Below are positions 47,089-60,880 of a stretch of DNA of 61,063 nt, one piece after another (the first letter of the stretch is position 1; each line of letters begins with the position of its first letter). The stretch spans positions 1-61,063 of the forward strand of contig JAKAKI010000080.1 in assembly GCA_021813505.1 (NCBI GenBank). Direction: 5' to 3'. Under the pieces are notes generated by a model. The model ran no database searches. It had not been told where the DNA came from and saw only the letters and a list, made by a program, of their open reading frames with translations. The position numbers and the translations under genes were made by a program. This DNA is from a bacterium (GTDB lineage: Bacteria; Zixibacteria; MSB-5A5; WJJR01).

Positions 47089-49299
47089 ATGAGTTCGAAT
47101 TCGAACGCGTCTGACAACAGAGCGTGTTGGTTTGTAGGGGCCACCTACGGCAAATCAGACGACCAGACGAGTCGGTTTCTCAGTGAGGGAACTTGGCAAA
47201 ACGGCTATCAGGATAAGTACCTGGAGGTCGTCAGGTCCATCCAGGTGGGTGAAAGGATAGCTATCAAAGCCGCCTACACGCGCAAGCGCGGGCTGCCATT
47301 CGATAATCTGGGTCACACCGTATCCGTCATGGCAATAAAGGCGATTGGCAGAGTAAGTGAGAATCTCGGAGATGGCCGAACCCTGAAGGTCGAGTGGACT
47401 TTTTGTGAACCGCAGCGAGAATGGTACTTCTATACCAACCGCAGTGCGGTATGGAAAGTCATGCCCGGCACCTGGATGACTGACGCGCTAATCAATTTCG
47501 CCTTCGAATCAAAGCCTCAGGAAATCGAACGATTTCGGAATGCACCCTACTGGAGAGAGCGGTTCGCAGACAGAACTCCAGATAAAAGGCGCTTCTCTTG
47601 GACCCGCTTTTATGAAGCGGTGGCTGACAAACTGTTGGGCTTTAGAGATAGACGGGCGGAACTCGTCGCGGCTATTCATGCGATCGCAGCCCGCGTCAAT
47701 GGGTTGGCGAATCTGCAAGAGCAGTACACAGACGGAACGTTTGGGCCACTGAGGGATATTTGTCCGTTTACGGTTATGGGGATCTTCAATCGTGGCATTA
47801 CAGATGCCAACCGAAGGATCATTGCCACCGAACTGGCAAAGCTCGTCGGTGTCACGGATCCAGTGCCCCAGTCGTTCGAAGGGATACCAGTCCTCAATAA
47901 CCAGAAGTCCTGGTTCTTCGGTCCCGAAAGCGAACGACAGCAAGACGATATCGATGCTCTTTGGGATATGTTCGCGCAGGCGCTCAAGTATGCTGATTCC
48001 GAGGACGCGAATGCAGAATCCGCTTTCGTAGAGGCGTATGACCGGGTGTCCAATCGCTACGGCGTTGGCTGGAATCTGACGATGGGTCTGTACTGGATTC
48101 GCCCATGGACTTATCTCACCTTGGACAGCCAGTCTCGAAAGTACATAACCAAGAAACTCAACATGCCGATCGCTTTCAATGGTCCAAAGGGTCGGTGCAA
48201 TGCGAAGGACTACTTGACCGTACTGGATGGGCTCGAGTCTCTCTTTCAAGAGGACGCTTACCCCGTTCACTCATTCCCTGAATTCTCGCTGGCCGCATGG
48301 CTGTTCAGAGACTCCGGCGTACAATCCACCGGAAAGTCCGTCGATCAGGAACCCGGTGACGTAAGTAGTGATGAAGCAGAGTCCGGCGGAGTGAGCACAC
48401 GCGCCTCCTTTGAGCCATATACGGTAGATAATATCCTTGCCGATGGTTGCTTCCTTGAGCGTGCGAAGCTTGAAACGGCTCTTGAGCGCCTTCGAACGAA
48501 AAGAAACCTCATTCTGCAGGGGGCTCCCGGCACTGGCAAGACCTGGCTGGCCAAACGCTTAGCCTTTGCACTCATGGGTCAGAGGAACGATGGAAATGTC
48601 CGAGGTGTCCAATTCCATCCCAACCTGTCCTACGAAGACTTCGTTCGGGGGTGGAGACCGACGAGTGAAGGCAAACTCGCCCTAACTGATGGTCCATTCT
48701 TACAGATGGTGATCGCGGCAACTCGGGAGCCGCTCTCAAAGCACGTAATTGTGATCGAAGAAATCAATCGAGGCAATCCCGCTCAAATCTTCGGCGAGAT
48801 GCTCACGCTTCTTGAGGCTGATAAGCGGACCCCCAGTGAGGCGTTAGAGCTTGGGTATCGGCGAAGCGAAGATGAACGAGTCTTCATTCCTGCCAACTTA
48901 TACGTCATCGGCACCATGAACATCGCGGATCGATCGCTTGCGCTTGTTGACCTGGCGTTGCGCCGACGCTTTGCATTCATAGATCTTGAGCCGATACTCG
49001 GAAAGCCTTGGAAAGACTGGGTTCACGGGCAATGTGGCATTGACTATGACCTCCTGTCGATTATCGAAGAACGCATGAGATCATTGAACGAGGATATCTC
49101 CTCCGACGCGAGTCTAGGTCCCAAATTCCGGGTTGGGCACAGTTTTGTAACCCCGCCTTTTGGTAATCCAATGAAAGACCCTAAGGAGTGGTTCAGGCAG
49201 GTTGTCGAGACAGAAATCGGCCCACTTCTTGACGAATATTGGTTTGACGCGCCCGAAAGGTCCCAGAAGGCGCGTGTGCAGTTGCTGGAAGGCCTCTGA
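47089..49299 (+). CDS. mcrB: McrB-like AAA+ GTPase of a modification-dependent restriction system
   Basis: A 736-residue protein. The C-terminal motor has Walker A GAPGTGKTWLAKRLA near residue 478, Walker B HVIVIEEINRGNPAQIFGEM and the McrB signature IGTMNIADRSLALVDLALRR. This family hydrolyses GTP and drives cutting by McrC at modified cytosines. Residues 1-120 (ACWFVGATYG, VGERIAIKAAYTRKRG, WYFYTNR) are beta-rich and might be an EVE/PUA-like reader of modified bases; residues about 170-430 are an unassigned helical domain. GC is lower than around it (31 of 60 in 47521-47580). ATG with GGAG upstream. Confidence 0.87.
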   Translation: MSSNSNASDNRACWFVGATYGKSDDQTSRFLSEGTWQNGYQDKYLEVVRSIQVGERIAIKAAYTRKRGLPFDNLGHTVSVMAIKAIGRVSENLGDGRTLKVEWTFCEPQREWYFYTNRSAVWKVMPGTWMTDALINFAFESKPQEIERFRNAPYWRERFADRTPDKRRFSWTRFYEAVADKLLGFRDRRAELVAAIHAIAARVNGLANLQEQYTDGTFGPLRDICPFTVMGIFNRGITDANRRIIATELAKLVGVTDPVPQSFEGIPVLNNQKSWFFGPESERQQDDIDALWDMFAQALKYADSEDANAESAFVEAYDRVSNRYGVGWNLTMGLYWIRPWTYLTLDSQSRKYITKKLNMPIAFNGPKGRCNAKDYLTVLDGLESLFQEDAYPVHSFPEFSLAAWLFRDSGVQSTGKSVDQEPGDVSSDEAESGGVSTRASFEPYTVDNILADGCFLERAKLETALERLRTKRNLILQGAPGTGKTWLAKRLAFALMGQRNDGNVRGVQFHPNLSYEDFVRGWRPTSEGKLALTDGPFLQMVIAATREPLSKHVIVIEEINRGNPAQIFGEMLTLLEADKRTPSEALELGYRRSEDERVFIPANLYVIGTMNIADRSLALVDLALRRRFAFIDLEPILGKPWKDWVHGQCGIDYDLLSIIEERMRSLNEDISSDASLGPKFRVGHSFVTPPFGNPMKDPKEWFRQVVETEIGPLLDEYWFDAPERSQKARVQLLEGL

Positions 49300-50429
49300 T
49301 GTTGAAAAGCGCACGAAACGGGGTTTCCACTTCAGAACAAACAGAGGCCGGACGAATCGGTCGAATCCCGGTTCGGAACCTCTGGTTGCTAATGCTATAC
49401 GCATCCGACCTTTTCCGTCAATGTGGGAGTGCCAAAGTCGCTGTCGAGGAGAGTCCCGATGATATCCCGGATCTCGTGGCCGAGATACTGACAGCAATCG
49501 TCGAGCGCAGGCTGATCCGAAATCTGAGTTTCGGATATCGACTACGTCAGTCGGTTTTGAGCCGAGTCCGCGGTCGGATTCAGATACTCACCACGGCGCG
49601 GCATCAACTACTCGAGCGCGGAGTTGTGGCCTGCCAATTCGAGGAACTCACGGTCAACACTCCTCGAAACCGGCTTGTTCGAGCCGCACTTGACAGCCTT
49701 TCAAGGGTTGTTCGCGACGCGGCCTTAGCCCGCAGGTGCCGCACACTTTCGGCAAGTCTCAAACAGATTGGTGTTACTGACCCAAAACCAGAGCGAGCTG
49801 AACTCTCTCTGGAGCACTACGGGCGAAACGACGCCTGTGATGAACAGATGGTTGCTGCCGCACGTCTCGCCTTCGATTTGTCGTTGCCCACCGAGTTCTC
49901 AGGCAGCGTCAACCTCCCCAGATTAGATAGGAAGATCGAATGGATTAGGCGGTTATTCGAGAAAGGCGTCGCCGGGTTTTTTGGCGTTGTCCTTGCGCCG
50001 CTGGAATGGCGAGTTGCGGCGGGAAGGACGCTAAAATGGCAAATCGACGCTAAGACGACAGGAATAGATCGCATACTGCCATCAATGCGCGCAGACATCG
50101 TGCTTGAGAACTCGAGATCTTGCCGGCGAGTCATCATCGACACGAAGTTCAATTCTATCTTGACACAGGGCTGGTACCGAGACGCGACATTGAGGAGCGG
50201 GTACGTCTATCAAATCTATACTTACCTGAAGTCACAAGAAGATCACTCCGATTCACCATCACTCACTGCGACTGGCGTTCTCTTGCATCCATCCATAGAT
50301 GAGGCTCTCAGTGAGTCGGTGGTGATTCAGGGCCACGAGATCCGCTTCGCAACGGTAGATCTCGGGGCTCAGCCTTGCGACATCCGGAGGCAATTGCTTC
50401 AAGTTGTAGACGTGTCACTTGAGGTGTGA
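49299..50429 (+). CDS. mcrC: McrC-like restriction endonuclease subunit
   Basis: A 376-residue partner of McrB. N-terminal IPVRNLWLLMLYASDLFR and the middle CQFEELTVNTPRNRLVRAAL are typical of McrC. The PD-(D/E)XK nuclease core is visible as MRADIVLENS followed by RRVIIDTKF (Asp then Asp-X-Lys, about residues 265-284) and a downstream YQIYTYL helix. Its ATG shares one base with the mcrB stop (TGATG), so the two are translated together. Expected to cut incoming DNA carrying modified cytosine. Confidence 0.88.
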   Translation: MLKSARNGVSTSEQTEAGRIGRIPVRNLWLLMLYASDLFRQCGSAKVAVEESPDDIPDLVAEILTAIVERRLIRNLSFGYRLRQSVLSRVRGRIQILTTARHQLLERGVVACQFEELTVNTPRNRLVRAALDSLSRVVRDAALARRCRTLSASLKQIGVTDPKPERAELSLEHYGRNDACDEQMVAAARLAFDLSLPTEFSGSVNLPRLDRKIEWIRRLFEKGVAGFFGVVLAPLEWRVAAGRTLKWQIDAKTTGIDRILPSMRADIVLENSRSCRRVIIDTKFNSILTQGWYRDATLRSGYVYQIYTYLKSQEDHSDSPSLTATGVLLHPSIDEALSESVVIQGHEIRFATVDLGAQPCDIRRQLLQVVDVSLEV

Positions 50430-55311: not shown

Positions 55312-56430
55312 CTATAGCGCCTTCGCCACCGCGTCTGCGACCTCGAGCGTGGTGTTACTCCCGCCCATGTCGTACGTGCGCACCTTACCGTCCTTGATGA
55401 CCTTGGCGATCGCCTTCTCCAGACGGGATGACATGGCCGTCTCACCGAGCCAATCCAGCATCAATTTGACCGTCAGGATCGTGGCCATCGGATTAACCTT
55501 GTACATGCCGGCGTATTTCGGCGCTGAACCATGCGTTGGCTCGAACACCGCGTAGTTGTCCCCGATATTCCCCGATGACGCGAAACCCAATCCCCCCACC
55601 AACTGCGCGCACAGATCGGAAATGATGTCGCCGAACATGTTCGACGTCACCATCACACCGTAATCCTTGGGGTTCTTGATCAACCACATGCACATCGCGT
55701 CAATGTTGGCTTCGTAGAACTTGATACCGGGGTACCCGTTCGCCACATCCCGGGCGGTGCGGGTCATCAGCCCGGAGGTCTCGCGCAGCACGTTGGGCTT
55801 CTCGACCAGTGTCACCGACGGATACCCGTATTTCTTGGCGTACTCGAATGCCGAGGTCACAATCGTGCGGCTTGCCGGTCTGGTGATAATCCGGCAGGAG
55901 ATCGCAATGTCTTCGGCCTTGACCTTGTCGAACTTCTTCATGCTCTTGCTGTGTTCGATCAGCTTCGCGCGCAAGTCGTCGGCCACCGGATGGAATTCCA
56001 CGCCGGCATACAAATCCTCGGTGTTCTCCCGGAAGACAACCAGATCGATGTCGTCGCGATAATTGAGCGGATTGCCGGGAAACGCTTTGCAGGGACGAAG
56101 ATTCGTGTGCAGGTTGAATGCCTGCCGCAATCCGACAATCGGGGAGGAGTATTTCAGGCCCTTTTCCTTGAGTGCGGGCGCCAGCTCAGCCTCGGCTTCC
56201 TCCTTGGGTTTCGATGTAATCGCGCCAAAGAGGGCACAATTGGTTTCCCGCAGGATCTTCAGCGTGCGCTCGGGAAGCGGATTGCCTTCTTCGCACCAGA
56301 ATTCCCAGCCGATGTCCGCGTTGATGTACTCCGCGTCCAGTTTGAGCGAATCGAGCACAACCCGCGCCGCATCCAATACATCCTTGCCGATTCCGTCTCC
56401 AGGCATCCACGCGATCTTATACTTGGCCAT
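55312..56430 (-). CDS. Isocitrate/isopropylmalate dehydrogenase family protein
   Basis: A 372-residue beta-decarboxylating dehydrogenase: MPGDGIGKDVLDAARVVL, LFGAITSKPKEE, LRPCKAFPGNPLNYRDDIDL, VVFRENTEDLYAGVEF, SNMFGDIISDLCAQLVGGLG and EPTHGSAPKYAG. The ENTEDLYAG segment and neighbours point to isocitrate rather than isopropylmalate as substrate, but homoisocitrate-type activity is possible. NAD is likely since the coenzyme loop is GSAPKYAGMYKVNPMA. Start ATG 56430 has AAGGAGA upstream. Divergent from the citrate-cleavage genes. Confidence 0.88.
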   Translation of the reverse strand: MAKYKIAWMPGDGIGKDVLDAARVVLDSLKLDAEYINADIGWEFWCEEGNPLPERTLKILRETNCALFGAITSKPKEEAEAELAPALKEKGLKYSSPIVGLRQAFNLHTNLRPCKAFPGNPLNYRDDIDLVVFRENTEDLYAGVEFHPVADDLRAKLIEHSKSMKKFDKVKAEDIAISCRIITRPASRTIVTSAFEYAKKYGYPSVTLVEKPNVLRETSGLMTRTARDVANGYPGIKFYEANIDAMCMWLIKNPKDYGVMVTSNMFGDIISDLCAQLVGGLGFASSGNIGDNYAVFEPTHGSAPKYAGMYKVNPMATILTVKLMLDWLGETAMSSRLEKAIAKVIKDGKVRTYDMGGSNTTLEVADAVAKAL

Positions 56431-56652: not shown

Positions 56653-56691
56653 GGCTCGCCCGGCCGTGCAATCAACCGGTCGAAGGTGTGT

Positions 56692-58257
56692 ATGGCGCGT
56701 TTACACGAATATCATGGCAAGCAACTTCTGCGGGAAGCAGGATTTGCTGTCCCCAAAGGGCAGGTCGTCCGCTCGCAGAGTGAGGTCCCGGCCGCCCTGG
56801 CCATCAGTGGCCTTCCCGCCGTAGTCAAAGCGCAGGCCTGGACCACCTCCCGAGCGGCGCAAGGCGCCATCGCGATTGCCGAGAACGTCGGCGATGTCAC
56901 CGCCGCAACCGTGCGGATGCTTTCGTTGAAAATCGGCGGTTTCGATGTTACCGAAGTCCTGATCGAAGAGAAGGTCGACATCAACCGTGAATTCTACGTC
57001 GGCATTGTTGTCGATGATGCCAACAAGACCCCGGTCGTGATCTTTTCGTCCATCGGCGGATCCGGTATCGAGGAGTTGGCGCGCAAGTATCCGAAGAATG
57101 TCTCCAAGACTCCGGTCGATGTACGTTTCGGATTGCGCGAATACGAGGCGCGTGAAGCAGTGCGCAAGACCGGCGTGACCGGTTCGCTGCAAAACGAGTT
57201 GACGAAGGCATTGCTGACACTCTATCGCGTCGCCCGCCAATGGGAGGCGCGCTCAGCGGAGATCAATCCGCTCGTGCTCCGTGGCGATGGCAAGCTCGTG
57301 GCGTGTGACTGCCGGATTACTGTCGATGACAGCGCGGTCTTCCGCCACCCCGAACTCAAAATCGAAATCGCCCGTGAATTCGGCCGCCCGCCAACCGCCT
57401 TGGACAAGATCGCCTGGACTGTTGAGAAAGACGATTACCGGGGCACCTTCTACTTCATTGAAATGGCGCGAGGCTACAAGAAGGGCGATGGATTCATCGG
57501 CTTCCATGGTGCGGGTGGAGGCGGATCGATGATGTCGATGGATGCGCTGGTGAAACGCGGGTATACGATTGCGAATTTCACCGACACATCCGGAAATCCG
57601 CCGGCATCCAAGGTCTATCGCGCCGCCAAGATTATTCTCTCTCAGCCCAATATCGATGGCTACTTCGGCTCCGGTTCGGGAGTCGCGTCGCAGGAGCAGT
57701 TCCACTCGGCACGCGGCCTGGTCAAGGCGTTTTGGGAGGAAAATCTCTCGATTCCCGCGGTGATCCGGCTCGGCGGCAATGGTGAGGACAAGGCAGTCCA
57801 GATTCTCACCGAATACACGAAAAATCTCCCAGCCCCGGTGGAAGGATACAAGAAGGACGACACCGCCGATTTCTGTGCCCAGCGCATGCAAAAGCTCCTG
57901 GATGCGCAGAGAGATAAAACCACACCGCGTAACCTGGCCTTGCCGGTCACTCCGGAATTCACCGCCAAAGACCCATACTCATTCGACACGCCGACCGGCA
58001 AAGTCGTTCTCGATCACGCTCTCTGCCGTGATTGCCAGACCAAGAGTTGCGTCCAGACTTGTGTGCCGCAAATCCTCAAAGATCAGGATGGTGTCGTTGT
58101 CCTGAACATCTCACGCGAAGACGCCAAAGCCGGCAAGTGCATTGAATGTCTGGCCTGCGAAGTCGAATGCCGTATCGGCGGGAACGCCGGTGGCCGGGTG
58201 ATCCTGCCGATCCCCGGTTTGGATGAGTACCGAACGAAAGTCGCGGCGGGGGAATAA
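56692..58257 (+). CDS. Succinyl-CoA synthetase beta-like ATP-grasp protein fused to a FixX-like ferredoxin
   Basis: A 521-residue protein. Residues 1-395 follow the ATP-grasp and CoA-ligase beta layout: ARLHEYHGKQLLREAGF, KVDINREFYVGIVVDD, EINPLVLRGDGKLVACD, GFHGAGGGGSMMSMDALV and FTDTSGNPPASKVYRAAKI. The usual glycine-rich GGRGKAGG loop is replaced by WTTSRAAQGA. Residues about 430-515 carry two Fe-S motifs, CRDCQTKSCVQTC (CX2CX4CX3C) and CIECLACEVEC (CX2CX2CX3C), in FixX-type arrangement. With the next two genes it resembles a split ATP-citrate lyase or citryl-CoA synthetase; succinyl-CoA or malyl-CoA synthesis are alternatives. Confidence 0.82.
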   Translation: MARLHEYHGKQLLREAGFAVPKGQVVRSQSEVPAALAISGLPAVVKAQAWTTSRAAQGAIAIAENVGDVTAATVRMLSLKIGGFDVTEVLIEEKVDINREFYVGIVVDDANKTPVVIFSSIGGSGIEELARKYPKNVSKTPVDVRFGLREYEAREAVRKTGVTGSLQNELTKALLTLYRVARQWEARSAEINPLVLRGDGKLVACDCRITVDDSAVFRHPELKIEIAREFGRPPTALDKIAWTVEKDDYRGTFYFIEMARGYKKGDGFIGFHGAGGGGSMMSMDALVKRGYTIANFTDTSGNPPASKVYRAAKIILSQPNIDGYFGSGSGVASQEQFHSARGLVKAFWEENLSIPAVIRLGGNGEDKAVQILTEYTKNLPAPVEGYKKDDTADFCAQRMQKLLDAQRDKTTPRNLALPVTPEFTAKDPYSFDTPTGKVVLDHALCRDCQTKSCVQTCVPQILKDQDGVVVLNISREDAKAGKCIECLACEVECRIGGNAGGRVILPIPGLDEYRTKVAAGE

Positions 58258-58343: not shown

Positions 58344-59270
58344 ATGAGCATCCTCGTCGACGAAACCAAGACTGTCATCGTGCAGGGCATTACCGGCCGC
58401 GAGGGAATGGCGCGCACGCAACTCATGCAGCGCTACGGCACCCGTGTCGTCGCCGGCTGCACACCCGCCAAAGGGGGACAGGATGTCCTGGGTGTGCCGG
58501 TTTTCGATACCGTCATGGAAGCCGTCGAGAAGATGGGACCCATCGATGTCTCCACGATTTTCGTCCCCGCGCCACTGGTCAAGAACGCGGCCCTCGAGGC
58601 CATCGCGGCGGGCATCAAACTCCTGGTGATCGTGCCTGATCGCGTCCCGATCTACGACGTTCTCGAAATCGCCGCTGCCGCCAAGGATGTCGGCGCCCGT
58701 TTCGTCGGGCCCAACACGCTGGGACTCCTGTCACCCGGCCGGGCTGTATTTGGCATGATCGGCGGTTCGGCTGCCTCCGCAAAAGACTGGTTCCTTCCCG
58801 GACGTGTTGGAGTGACCTCGCGCTCCGGCGGTATCACATCCTCCATCGCGTACTACCTCTCTCGCGCCGGTATCGGCCTGTCCACGATCATCCATGTTGG
58901 CGGCGATGGGATCATCGGGACCGATCACCCCGCGGTCATGGAGTTGTTCGAATCAGACCCCGACACCGATTGCGTCGTGATGTTCGGCGAAATCGGTACC
59001 TCACAAGAGGAACGCGTCGCCGATCTCATCGGCTCCGGCAAATTCACCAAGCCTCTGATCGCGTACATCGGTGGCAAAGGGGCGCAGACGGGAACACGCT
59101 TCTCGCATGCCGGGGCCATCATCGAAGGTGACCGGGGCACGCACGACGGTAAAGTCAAACGTTTGCGCGAGGTCGGTGCGACCGTCGTGGACAACTTCGG
59201 CGATATCCCGGACGCGGTGAAGACGATCATCCGGCCAATGGAGACCGCGAAAATCCCCATCATCGAGTAG
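58344..59270 (+). CDS. Succinyl-CoA/citryl-CoA synthetase alpha-like subunit
   Basis: A 308-residue CoA-binding ligase subunit. The N-terminal Rossmann part reads VIVQGITGREGMARTQLMQ, VVAGCTPAKGGQDVLGVPVF and VPAPLVKNAALEAI, then RFVGPNTLGLLSPG and GVTSRSGGITSSIAYYL. The phosphohistidine loop is GTRFSHAGAIIEGDRGT, His about residue 254. It should pair with the upstream beta-like protein to make an acyl-CoA with ATP. An 86-base gap containing a GGGCGCCC hairpin (58291-58318) separates them; same operon expected. Confidence 0.88.
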   Translation: MSILVDETKTVIVQGITGREGMARTQLMQRYGTRVVAGCTPAKGGQDVLGVPVFDTVMEAVEKMGPIDVSTIFVPAPLVKNAALEAIAAGIKLLVIVPDRVPIYDVLEIAAAAKDVGARFVGPNTLGLLSPGRAVFGMIGGSAASAKDWFLPGRVGVTSRSGGITSSIAYYLSRAGIGLSTIIHVGGDGIIGTDHPAVMELFESDPDTDCVVMFGEIGTSQEERVADLIGSGKFTKPLIAYIGGKGAQTGTRFSHAGAIIEGDRGTHDGKVKRLREVGATVVDNFGDIPDAVKTIIRPMETAKIPIIE

Positions 59271-59308: not shown

Positions 59309-60088
59309 ATGGGCGACATGAACTGGTCATCCGCAATCACCGAGATCGGCCCCAATGTCATCCGTCTCCGCGGCTACCCGGTCGAAGAGTTGATGGGCAG
59401 GATCGGCTTCGCCGAAGCGATTCATCTCGCCTTGCTTGGCGAACTCCCTGATCCCGCGACCGCCACGATCCTGAACGCGATCTTTGTCTCATCGGTCGAC
59501 CATGGCACCTCGCCGCCGTCTGTCCTCTCAACTGTAACGGTGGCCTCGACCGGTGCACCGCTCGGTGCGGCGGTTGCCGCCGGCATTCTCTCGATTTCCA
59601 GATTCCACGGCGGCGCCATCGAAGATTCGATGAAGGCCATCAGCGAAGCGGTGGCCGCGGCAAAGAGCAAGGGCCTGTCGTTCGAGGATGCCGCCCTCGC
59701 CACATTCGAAAGCTACAAGGCACGCGGAGCGCGGCTACCCGGATTCGGGCATCGCCTGCATACCAAAGACCCGCGCACTACCAGGCTGCTGCAAATGGTC
59801 GATGACCTTGGCAAGGCAAAAGACGGACTTGCGATGGCCCGTGCGCTCGAGTCGACGATTGCCAAGGAGGCCGGCAAGCCGCTACCCCTCAATGTCGACG
59901 GTGCGATTGCCGCGGTGCTGCTCGACTTGAACGTGCCGCCCGCCCTCGCCAATGCCTTTTTCATGATTGCGCGTCTGCCCGGGCTGGTGGCGCATGCCAA
60001 CGAAGAGCGGACCCGTCAGAAACCGATGCGCCAAATTCACCCGACCGATACCACCTACGACGGTCCGGCTCTCCGCCACCTGAAATGA
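59309..60088 (+). CDS. Citrate synthase-fold lyase, probable citryl-CoA lyase
   Basis: A 259-residue citrate-synthase-fold protein, much shorter than true citrate synthases (usually about 370-430). The three catalytic positions are retained: His in RFHGGAIEDSM (about 101), His in PGFGHRLHTKDPR (about 147) and Asp in LNVDGAIAAVLLDL (about 196). RQKPMRQIHPTDTTYDGPA ends the protein in place of the usual RPRxxYxG tail. This size and pattern fit citryl-CoA lyase or the C-terminal domain of ATP-citrate lyase, splitting citryl-CoA into acetyl-CoA and oxaloacetate. It follows the alpha-like gene by 38 bases. Confidence 0.82.
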   Translation: MGDMNWSSAITEIGPNVIRLRGYPVEELMGRIGFAEAIHLALLGELPDPATATILNAIFVSSVDHGTSPPSVLSTVTVASTGAPLGAAVAAGILSISRFHGGAIEDSMKAISEAVAAAKSKGLSFEDAALATFESYKARGARLPGFGHRLHTKDPRTTRLLQMVDDLGKAKDGLAMARALESTIAKEAGKPLPLNVDGAIAAVLLDLNVPPALANAFFMIARLPGLVAHANEERTRQKPMRQIHPTDTTYDGPALRHLK

Positions 60089-60346: not shown

Positions 60347-60880
60347 ATGCCCAACGAAATCCTCTCCATCTTCCCCGAAATCAACGAAATCAAGGACGCG
60401 ACCCTGCGCAGCAAGACCGCCGCGACTTGGACCGCTGCGATGAAACGCAGCACGCTGTCCTACGATGATCTGCGCACCATGCCGTTCACGCTTTTGGTGT
60501 CCAACGTCAACGTGACCTTCGTTGAACACGTGCGTACTGTGTGCAAAATGTGCATCGCCTGCTGGGATGTGTTGCAGAAATCCTACGGCGACCGCAACAT
60601 GGTCGACCGCGACGTCCTGATCGCCGGCGCGATGCTCGCCGATGTCGGCAAAGTGCTGGAGTTTACCAAGAAAGACGGCCAGTTCGTCAAAAGTGAACAC
60701 GGCCGTTTGCTCCGCCATCCGTTCAGCGGTGTAGGACTCTGCTGGGAGCAGGGGCTACCCGAAGCGGTGATTCACGTCGTGGCGATGCATTCCAAGGAAG
60801 CGGCCGGTGGCAAACGCACCCCGGAAGGCATCGTCCTGCACCACGCCGATTTCATCGACTTCGAACTTGTCGGAGGCTGA
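60347..60880 (+). CDS. HD-domain (HDIG-like) phosphohydrolase-fold protein, HD pair altered
   Basis: A 177-residue cytoplasmic protein with an HD-superfamily pattern: VEHVRTVCKMCIA (first His), GAMLADVGKVLEF, HGRLLRHPFSGVGLCWEQGL and LHHADFIDFE. At the signature position the usual LHDIGK reads LADVGK, so the metal-binding His is replaced by Ala while Asp is kept; catalysis is doubtful unless another His substitutes. It is embedded between the citryl-CoA lyase and aconitase-family genes. ATG 60347 has GAGGAAA upstream. Its role in this cluster is unknown. Confidence 0.78.
   Translation: MPNEILSIFPEINEIKDATLRSKTAATWTAAMKRSTLSYDDLRTMPFTLLVSNVNVTFVEHVRTVCKMCIACWDVLQKSYGDRNMVDRDVLIAGAMLADVGKVLEFTKKDGQFVKSEHGRLLRHPFSGVGLCWEQGLPEAVIHVVAMHSKEAAGGKRTPEGIVLHHADFIDFELVGG

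Follow-up and report, generated by a model that had tools for sequence, protein, structure and literature searches.

The window (the whole stretch of DNA analysed, 61,063 nucleotides) contains, at positions 56692..58257 of the forward strand, a gene for a 521-residue protein in which the large subunit of a CoA ligase, predicted to be of the citryl-CoA synthetase type, is joined in a single frame to a dicluster ferredoxin domain; we refer to the product as CcsA-Fd. The frame is unbroken from the ATG at 56692 to the stop at 58257. A GTG at 56686 offers an alternative start, the ATG matches the MARLHEY start of homologues, and residues and cysteines are numbered here from the ATG. The ATP-grasp and citrate/CoA-ligase part spans residues 1-405 (56692..57906, forward strand), as delimited by motifs, by an ATP-grasp_2 domain (PF08442, E = 1.1e-44 in a Pfam scan) and by alignment to 6hxq_B, the large subunit of citryl-CoA synthetase, which reaches residue 406 of the 523-residue translation from the GTG at 56686. 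A poorly conserved linker (residues 406-427; 57907..57972, forward strand), evident in the alignment and as a dip in AlphaFold2 pLDDT to about 80 at residues 411-420, leads into the ferredoxin domain (residues 428-521; 57973..58257, forward strand), for which eight invariant cysteines, the AlphaFold2 model and Foldseek predict two [4Fe-4S] clusters. Cysteine motif I, CX2CX4CX3C, comprises C445, C448, C453 and C457 (58024..58062, forward strand), and motif II, CX2CX2CX3C, comprises C483, C486, C489 and C493 (58138..58170, forward strand). The mean pLDDT of the whole protein is 92.6, with most blocks of the ferredoxin domain at 91-97; modelled alone, the domain reaches 92.3.

A first-pass annotation of this DNA had described a two-cluster ferredoxin-type domain in the same frame as a CoA-ligase beta subunit. 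That description holds, the cysteine spacings and coordinates it gave are exact, and the fusion is common to homologues. The frameshift or assembly join between residues 395 and 430 that it had raised as a concern was looked for, and the frame is continuous there; an artefact of this kind was rejected given the identical architecture on 80 other contigs.

Three further genes follow on the forward strand: a SucD/CcsB-like small subunit (58344..59270, 308 aa) whose phosphohistidine motif is SHAGA, a citryl-CoA lyase-like protein (CCL; 59309..60088, 259 aa) with HGGA, GFGHR and NVDG motifs, and a small HD-domain protein (60347..60880, 177 aa; PF01966, 23.5 bits against a cut-off of 22). The lyase scores 231.1 bits against the NCBIfam citryl-CoA lyase model NF004869 (cut-off 212), and its top PDB match is the citryl-CoA lyase 6hxp (E = 9.4e-47). 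Upstream, and divergent, lies an isocitrate/homoisocitrate-type dehydrogenase (55312..56430, reverse strand, 372 aa; PF00180, E = 1.7e-85). HD-domain proteins of about 177 residues, placed in the window after the citryl-CoA lyase gene, belong to a family found near 42 of the loci examined (for example L042:10230-10760, L057:11687-12223 and L086:9252-9782). Farther off, at 47089-50429 (forward strand), an AAA ATPase gene followed by one for a 376-residue protein resembles, by eye, a McrB/McrC-type restriction pair.

Conservation of the fusion and its tie to the ligase

Eight relatives were aligned and used to scan GTDB genomes; of the 336 relatives matched, the best 80 were analysed. All of these best 80 carry the fusion with both cysteine motifs, at identical spacing and with a gap of 25 or 26 residues between them, and they span at least ten phyla, including, by record title, Zixibacteria, Chloroflexota, Aminicenantes, KSB1, Calditrichota, Marinimicrobia, Acidobacteria, Cloacimonadota, Hydrothermota, WOR-3 and others. 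None of the eight cysteines varies across an alignment of 71 homologues, for the most part 52-60% identical to the window protein, or across a set of 62 aligned sequences; with eight cysteines invariant in 71 homologues and their spacing constant in the best 80, the pattern lies far beyond chance. Candidate close homologues lacking the module proved to be cut at contig ends, interrupted by Ns or frameshifted (L117, L118, L121, L122), and a fifth (L119, in genome G355) has a separate module gene 2.5 kb downstream, adjoining the alpha subunit.

A set of the 80 top-scoring matches is biased towards full-length proteins, and we therefore also give counts over whole genomes, which are free of that bias. 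Across 523 genomes from three lineages, the ligase occurs in 84 and the iron-sulfur module in 86. In the class Anaerolineae (249 genomes, searched at E up to 1e-60 for the ligase and up to 1e-8 for the module) both occur in the same 22 genomes, and in the phylum of the window (132 genomes) in the same eight. One class of Aminicenantes (142 genomes) has 54 with the ligase and 56 with the module; the two extra modules (G546 and G563) are no more than about 50 bases away from the end of a contig, which would have removed the ligase. All module matches in the genome lists are fused to the ligase, adjacent to it, or located at broken contig ends or in interrupted genes. Close relatives without the fusion, which the first-pass annotation had regarded as telling, were sought: wherever the ligase is present the fusion is kept, and two genomes of the same family as the window, G127 and G129, lack ligase and iron-sulfur domain together. 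The module thus belongs specifically to this clade of ligases. Because the tie is one-to-one, the module works with the ligase and not as a general electron carrier, and since the ligase is its only constant partner, a role inside the ligase complex is favoured over docking to one external enzyme.

The distribution among Chloroflexota is patchy: in an even sample of 151 genomes from this phylum, that of carrier G149, the carrier itself was the sole one. Genome G129, reported as 100% complete, has a citryl-CoA lyase gene beside aconitase (L114:2039-2914, reverse strand, on G129:C13) and neither ligase nor iron-sulfur module.

Identity of the iron-sulfur domain and of the ligase

The domain had initially been called a FixX-like two-cluster ferredoxin. 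Its eight invariant cysteines agree with two clusters, which the window module almost certainly binds, to judge by homology; the FixX label does not stand. Pfam and NCBIfam scans returned no FixX/ETF-QO family match for the window domain at E up to 0.1, nor any among 62 homologues at E up to 0.01, and membership of that family was rejected. FixX holds one cluster, whereas two are predicted here; the resemblance lies in a small iron-sulfur domain with a CxxCxxC motif. The CX2CX4CX3C spacing is that of DmsB/HycB-type dicluster ferredoxins, and the eight-cysteine pattern, a predicted fold that may be of ferredoxin type and weak Fer4_9- and KorD-type matches likewise resemble the 2x[4Fe-4S] domains of DmsB/HycB, KorD and Fer4_9. 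Unlike these, the module stays below every curated cut-off in Pfam and NCBIfam (Fer4_9, 19.9 bits against 27), is found with no proteins other than these CoA ligases across the 523 genomes, and may in its separate forms have an aspartate in place of one cysteine. The earlier remark that no standard family has such an architecture is accordingly true of Pfam and NCBIfam. Foldseek gave many ferredoxin-type matches with probabilities up to 0.98, individually weak, as is usual for a domain of this small size (best E = 0.028), among them HgcB, HydB, oxalate oxidoreductase and Azotobacter FdI; the top PDB profile match is 8ys5_D, the small subunit of a 2-oxoglutarate:acceptor oxidoreductase (E = 0.002).

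The ligase itself is probably of the citryl-CoA synthetase type (CcsA), its specificity for citryl-CoA being judged by homology; the name succinyl-CoA ligase given in the first-pass annotation is probably wrong, considering the citryl-CoA-synthetase-type motifs and the citryl-CoA lyase two genes downstream. As in the CcsA/CcsB enzyme of Hydrogenobacter thermophilus (6hxq), an ATP-grasp large subunit is paired with a SucD-like small subunit and a separate citryl-CoA lyase partner (6hxp, the top match of the third gene). The window ligase and 6hxq_B have GGGGS and GNPPASKVYRAAKIILS motifs in common, and the substrate loop reads GGGGS...ANFTDTSGNPPASKVYRAAKIILS in the window and GGGGS...ANFTDIGGNPPAEKMYKITKIILS in H. 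thermophilus CcsA, where SucC has GGG or GGS forms; the GNPPA.K.Y...KIILS substrate motif is also common to the two, with GNPP standing where SucC has GGG or GGS. However, the solved CcsA chain (429 residues) has no iron-sulfur domain, and its overall score is no closer than that of SucC: over the whole length, both sequence and fold scores place succinyl-CoA synthetase (3ufx SucC) above CcsA, which ranks first for the substrate half of the ligase only. The citryl assignment therefore draws on four things, namely the substrate loop, the lyase gene, the conserved phosphohistidine and lyase motifs, and the aconitase and isocitrate dehydrogenase neighbours in relatives, against whole-length scores that favour SucC.

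Those scores are also the case for a succinyl-CoA or other dicarboxylate-CoA ligase that has an iron-sulfur domain and is no citryl-CoA synthetase: fold, ATP-grasp domain and best whole-protein match all lead to 3ufx. We consider such an enzyme improbable, as the substrate loop has GNPP and not the GGG/GGS of SucC, the window genome has its own SucC elsewhere (G000:C89), CCL adjoins or is fused to CcsB, and SucC, which has no iron-sulfur domain, forms a clade apart in the tree (100/99).

The neighbourhood of the ligase is largely shared by relatives. CcsB lies near about 70 of the 80 loci and CCL near about 61 of 80 (counted by eye), several others ending at a contig edge; FSHAGA occurs in 53 of the 56 homologous small-subunit reading frames scored, and the short lyase form was found in 36 of 37 carrier genomes by manual count. 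Aconitase and isocitrate dehydrogenase genes stand beside the ligase in relatives, and a homologue of the window dehydrogenase lies near 20 of the loci examined. ATP-citrate lyase in its two-subunit forms from bacteria and archaea (6hxj, 6hxi) has the same predicted net reaction; its beta subunit (chains of 398-421 aa) lacks a ferredoxin domain, however, and its alpha subunit unites ligase and lyase on one polypeptide, whereas the window has CcsB and CCL as separate genes. Only four loci have the two in one frame of 565-614 aa resembling ATP-citrate lyase alpha (L059:7412-9253, L069:1550-3316, L070:7464-9233 and L101:3337-5031, all forward strand). At one Marinimicrobia locus a DNA methylase gene (PF01555) sits between ccsA-Fd and ccsB (L042:7524-8510, forward strand), and a second from that phylum was identified by position and likeness at L046:6200-7210.

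The module is not always fused. Five paralogous ligases in four genomes (two of them in G405) have a separate module gene, in the order beta-Fd-alpha (L120:621-5273, L124:2588-5093, L125:2827-5335 and L126:1977-8466, with L123:2854-5362 on the reverse strand). Split and fused modules are homologous (40% identity and E = 6e-19 for the pair compared), and one cluster-II cysteine is replaced by aspartate in all four split modules aligned. In the tree the fused ligases form one side of a branch supported at 94/97 and the split ones a clade at 100/100; long branches leave the deep order unsure. Some of the split paralogues adjoin HMG-CoA-lyase-like, PrpF and LeuC/LeuD-like genes, others the genes for methylmalonyl-CoA mutase and epimerase, and these operons possibly represent undescribed hydroxy-acid degradation pathways. 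Genome G355 has yet another arrangement (L143:6554-12451, equivalent to G355:C215:15553-21450, forward strand), with beta subunit, an insert, a separate eight-cysteine ferredoxin, alpha subunit and a CitE-like lyase; the latter is followed by another HD-domain protein, and genes for a member of the MmgE/PrpD family and for sdhA/sdhB-like proteins also lie downstream. Whether fused (citryl type) or split, the module stays with the ligase while lyases and neighbours vary, and because it also accompanies paralogous ligases that have other lyases nearby, the arrangement looks like a general principle and not a single odd fusion.

Possible roles of the module

Many uncultured bacteria of anaerobe type are thus predicted to encode a citrate-CoA ligase that always has its own two-cluster module, as a fused domain or a neighbouring gene, which raises the question of what eight cysteines, invariant across at least ten phyla, do in an enzyme without redox chemistry. 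Full-text searches of open-access papers turned up no account of the fusion, nor of any CoA ligase that has a ferredoxin as a subunit. One report describes CCS/CCL genes of Planctomycetes that previously bore the annotation succinyl-CoA synthetase and that fall between the CCS/CCL of Aquificae and Leptospirillum and type II ACL; its section on these genes makes no mention of an iron-sulfur domain (PMC5459899).

Our preferred reading, to which we give a probability of roughly 0.4 as a whole, is that of an ATP-dependent citryl-CoA synthetase with its own 2x[4Fe-4S] module through which citrate activation is gated by redox state; the same reading minus the gating is likely, with a CCL above the NCBIfam cut-off and a substrate loop that is CcsA-like and not SucC-like. 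CcsA-Fd, CcsB and citryl-CoA lyase would interconvert citrate, CoA and ATP with acetyl-CoA, oxaloacetate, ADP and phosphate, so that CCS and CCL together would do with two enzymes what ATP-citrate lyase does with one. The module itself would perform no chemistry on citrate and would be regulatory: its clusters may equilibrate with the ferredoxin of the cell, or be lost to oxygen, and so decide whether the ligase runs, such that the activation and cleavage of citrate would be limited to times when there are low-potential electrons with which to use the acetyl-CoA. Since CCS/CCL working against a co-encoded citrate synthase would burn ATP, such a gate would hold off a wasteful cycle with the ordinary enzyme, which most carriers encode: a full-length citrate synthase is present in 29 of the 37 carrier genomes checked (manual count), and G131 has a fragment only. 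The same count led us to reject the idea that CCS/CCL merely replaces citrate synthase. However, the gating is a tentative proposal. CcsA-Fd has no sequence feature indicating redox control, seven of the 37 carriers have no citrate synthase, either full-length or as a large fragment, so that the futile-cycle argument is partial, and the exchange of a cluster-II cysteine for aspartate in the split modules of four paralogous operons implies that the cluster can vary.

The iron-sulfur domain could just as well serve for docking or be part of the structure. In the docking reading, which is close to the proposal of the first-pass annotation, it would be a built-in ferredoxin that occupies the ferredoxin site of an oxidoreductase acting on pyruvate or 2-oxoglutarate, so that the acetyl-CoA from citryl-CoA cleavage (or the partner oxoacid) would pass directly between the enzymes, possibly with electron transfer; we consider this somewhat unlikely. 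The products of the lyase, acetyl-CoA and 2-oxoacids, are indeed substrates of these oxidoreductases, which all eight carriers in the window phylum encode, but so do 125 of the 132 genomes of that phylum, with or without the fusion, and we dropped oxidoreductase presence as a diagnostic because the association is not specific. KorA/B/C-type genes occur within about 6 kb at five of 73 loci (L057, L064, L077, L094 and L098), some of them accompanied by HdrA-like or hydrogenase genes; 68 of the 73 have no oxidoreductase gene nearby, and at least one of the adjacent Kor operons (L094) has its own KorD-like ferredoxin beside KorA and the fusion, which weakens the notion of the module as a KorD substitute. 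The match to 8ys5_D points the same way as docking, yet is weak and maybe generic. With genes for 2-oxoacid:ferredoxin oxidoreductases near just five of 73 loci, docking to these enzymes seems to us a less likely role than the redox control of citrate activation.

A purely structural module, whose clusters would have no redox role but would hold together a small domain that aids beta-alpha assembly or brings in the lyase, appears less likely again. Both the beta-Fd-alpha order of the split operons and the C-terminal position of the fusion place the module by the beta/alpha assembly, its obligate association with the ligase is what a structural part would show, and to judge by the loss of one cluster cysteine in some split modules, redox tuning may not be strict. 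Such a part could nevertheless have been replaced, whereas eight cysteines have stayed invariant at mostly 52-60% identity across at least ten phyla; the solved CcsA (6hxq, 429 aa) and the ATP-citrate lyases do without the module, and the lyase partners have unrelated folds.

Citrate cleavage is the key step separating the reductive from the oxidative TCA cycle, and surveys of carbon fixation recognise it by genes for ACL or CCS/CCL, so that a widespread CCS with an obligate iron-sulfur module would extend the catalogue of citrate-cleavage genes. The formation of citryl-CoA moves no electrons, yet the module is constant, suggesting that citrate cleavage is maybe coupled to electron supply. Were the gating true, it would be a direct link from the supply of low-potential electrons to the direction of central carbon flow; were docking true, the module would be a channelling device. 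Slightly more speculative than the gating of this one enzyme is its extension to a new iron-sulfur-dependent family of CoA ligases, in which an obligate two-cluster module, fused or present as a third subunit, would couple the ATP-dependent activation of citrate (other hydroxy acids being the probable substrates of the paralogues) to the redox state of ferredoxin and thereby steer the direction of carbon flow through citrate in many uncultured lineages of anaerobe type.

One of the loci mentioned above, from an Anaerolineae genome, has HdrA-like, MvhD-like, hydrogenase-like and KorC-like genes divergent beside the fusion (L064:92-5448, reverse strand), a cluster in which the profile scan covered the HdrA-like protein only.
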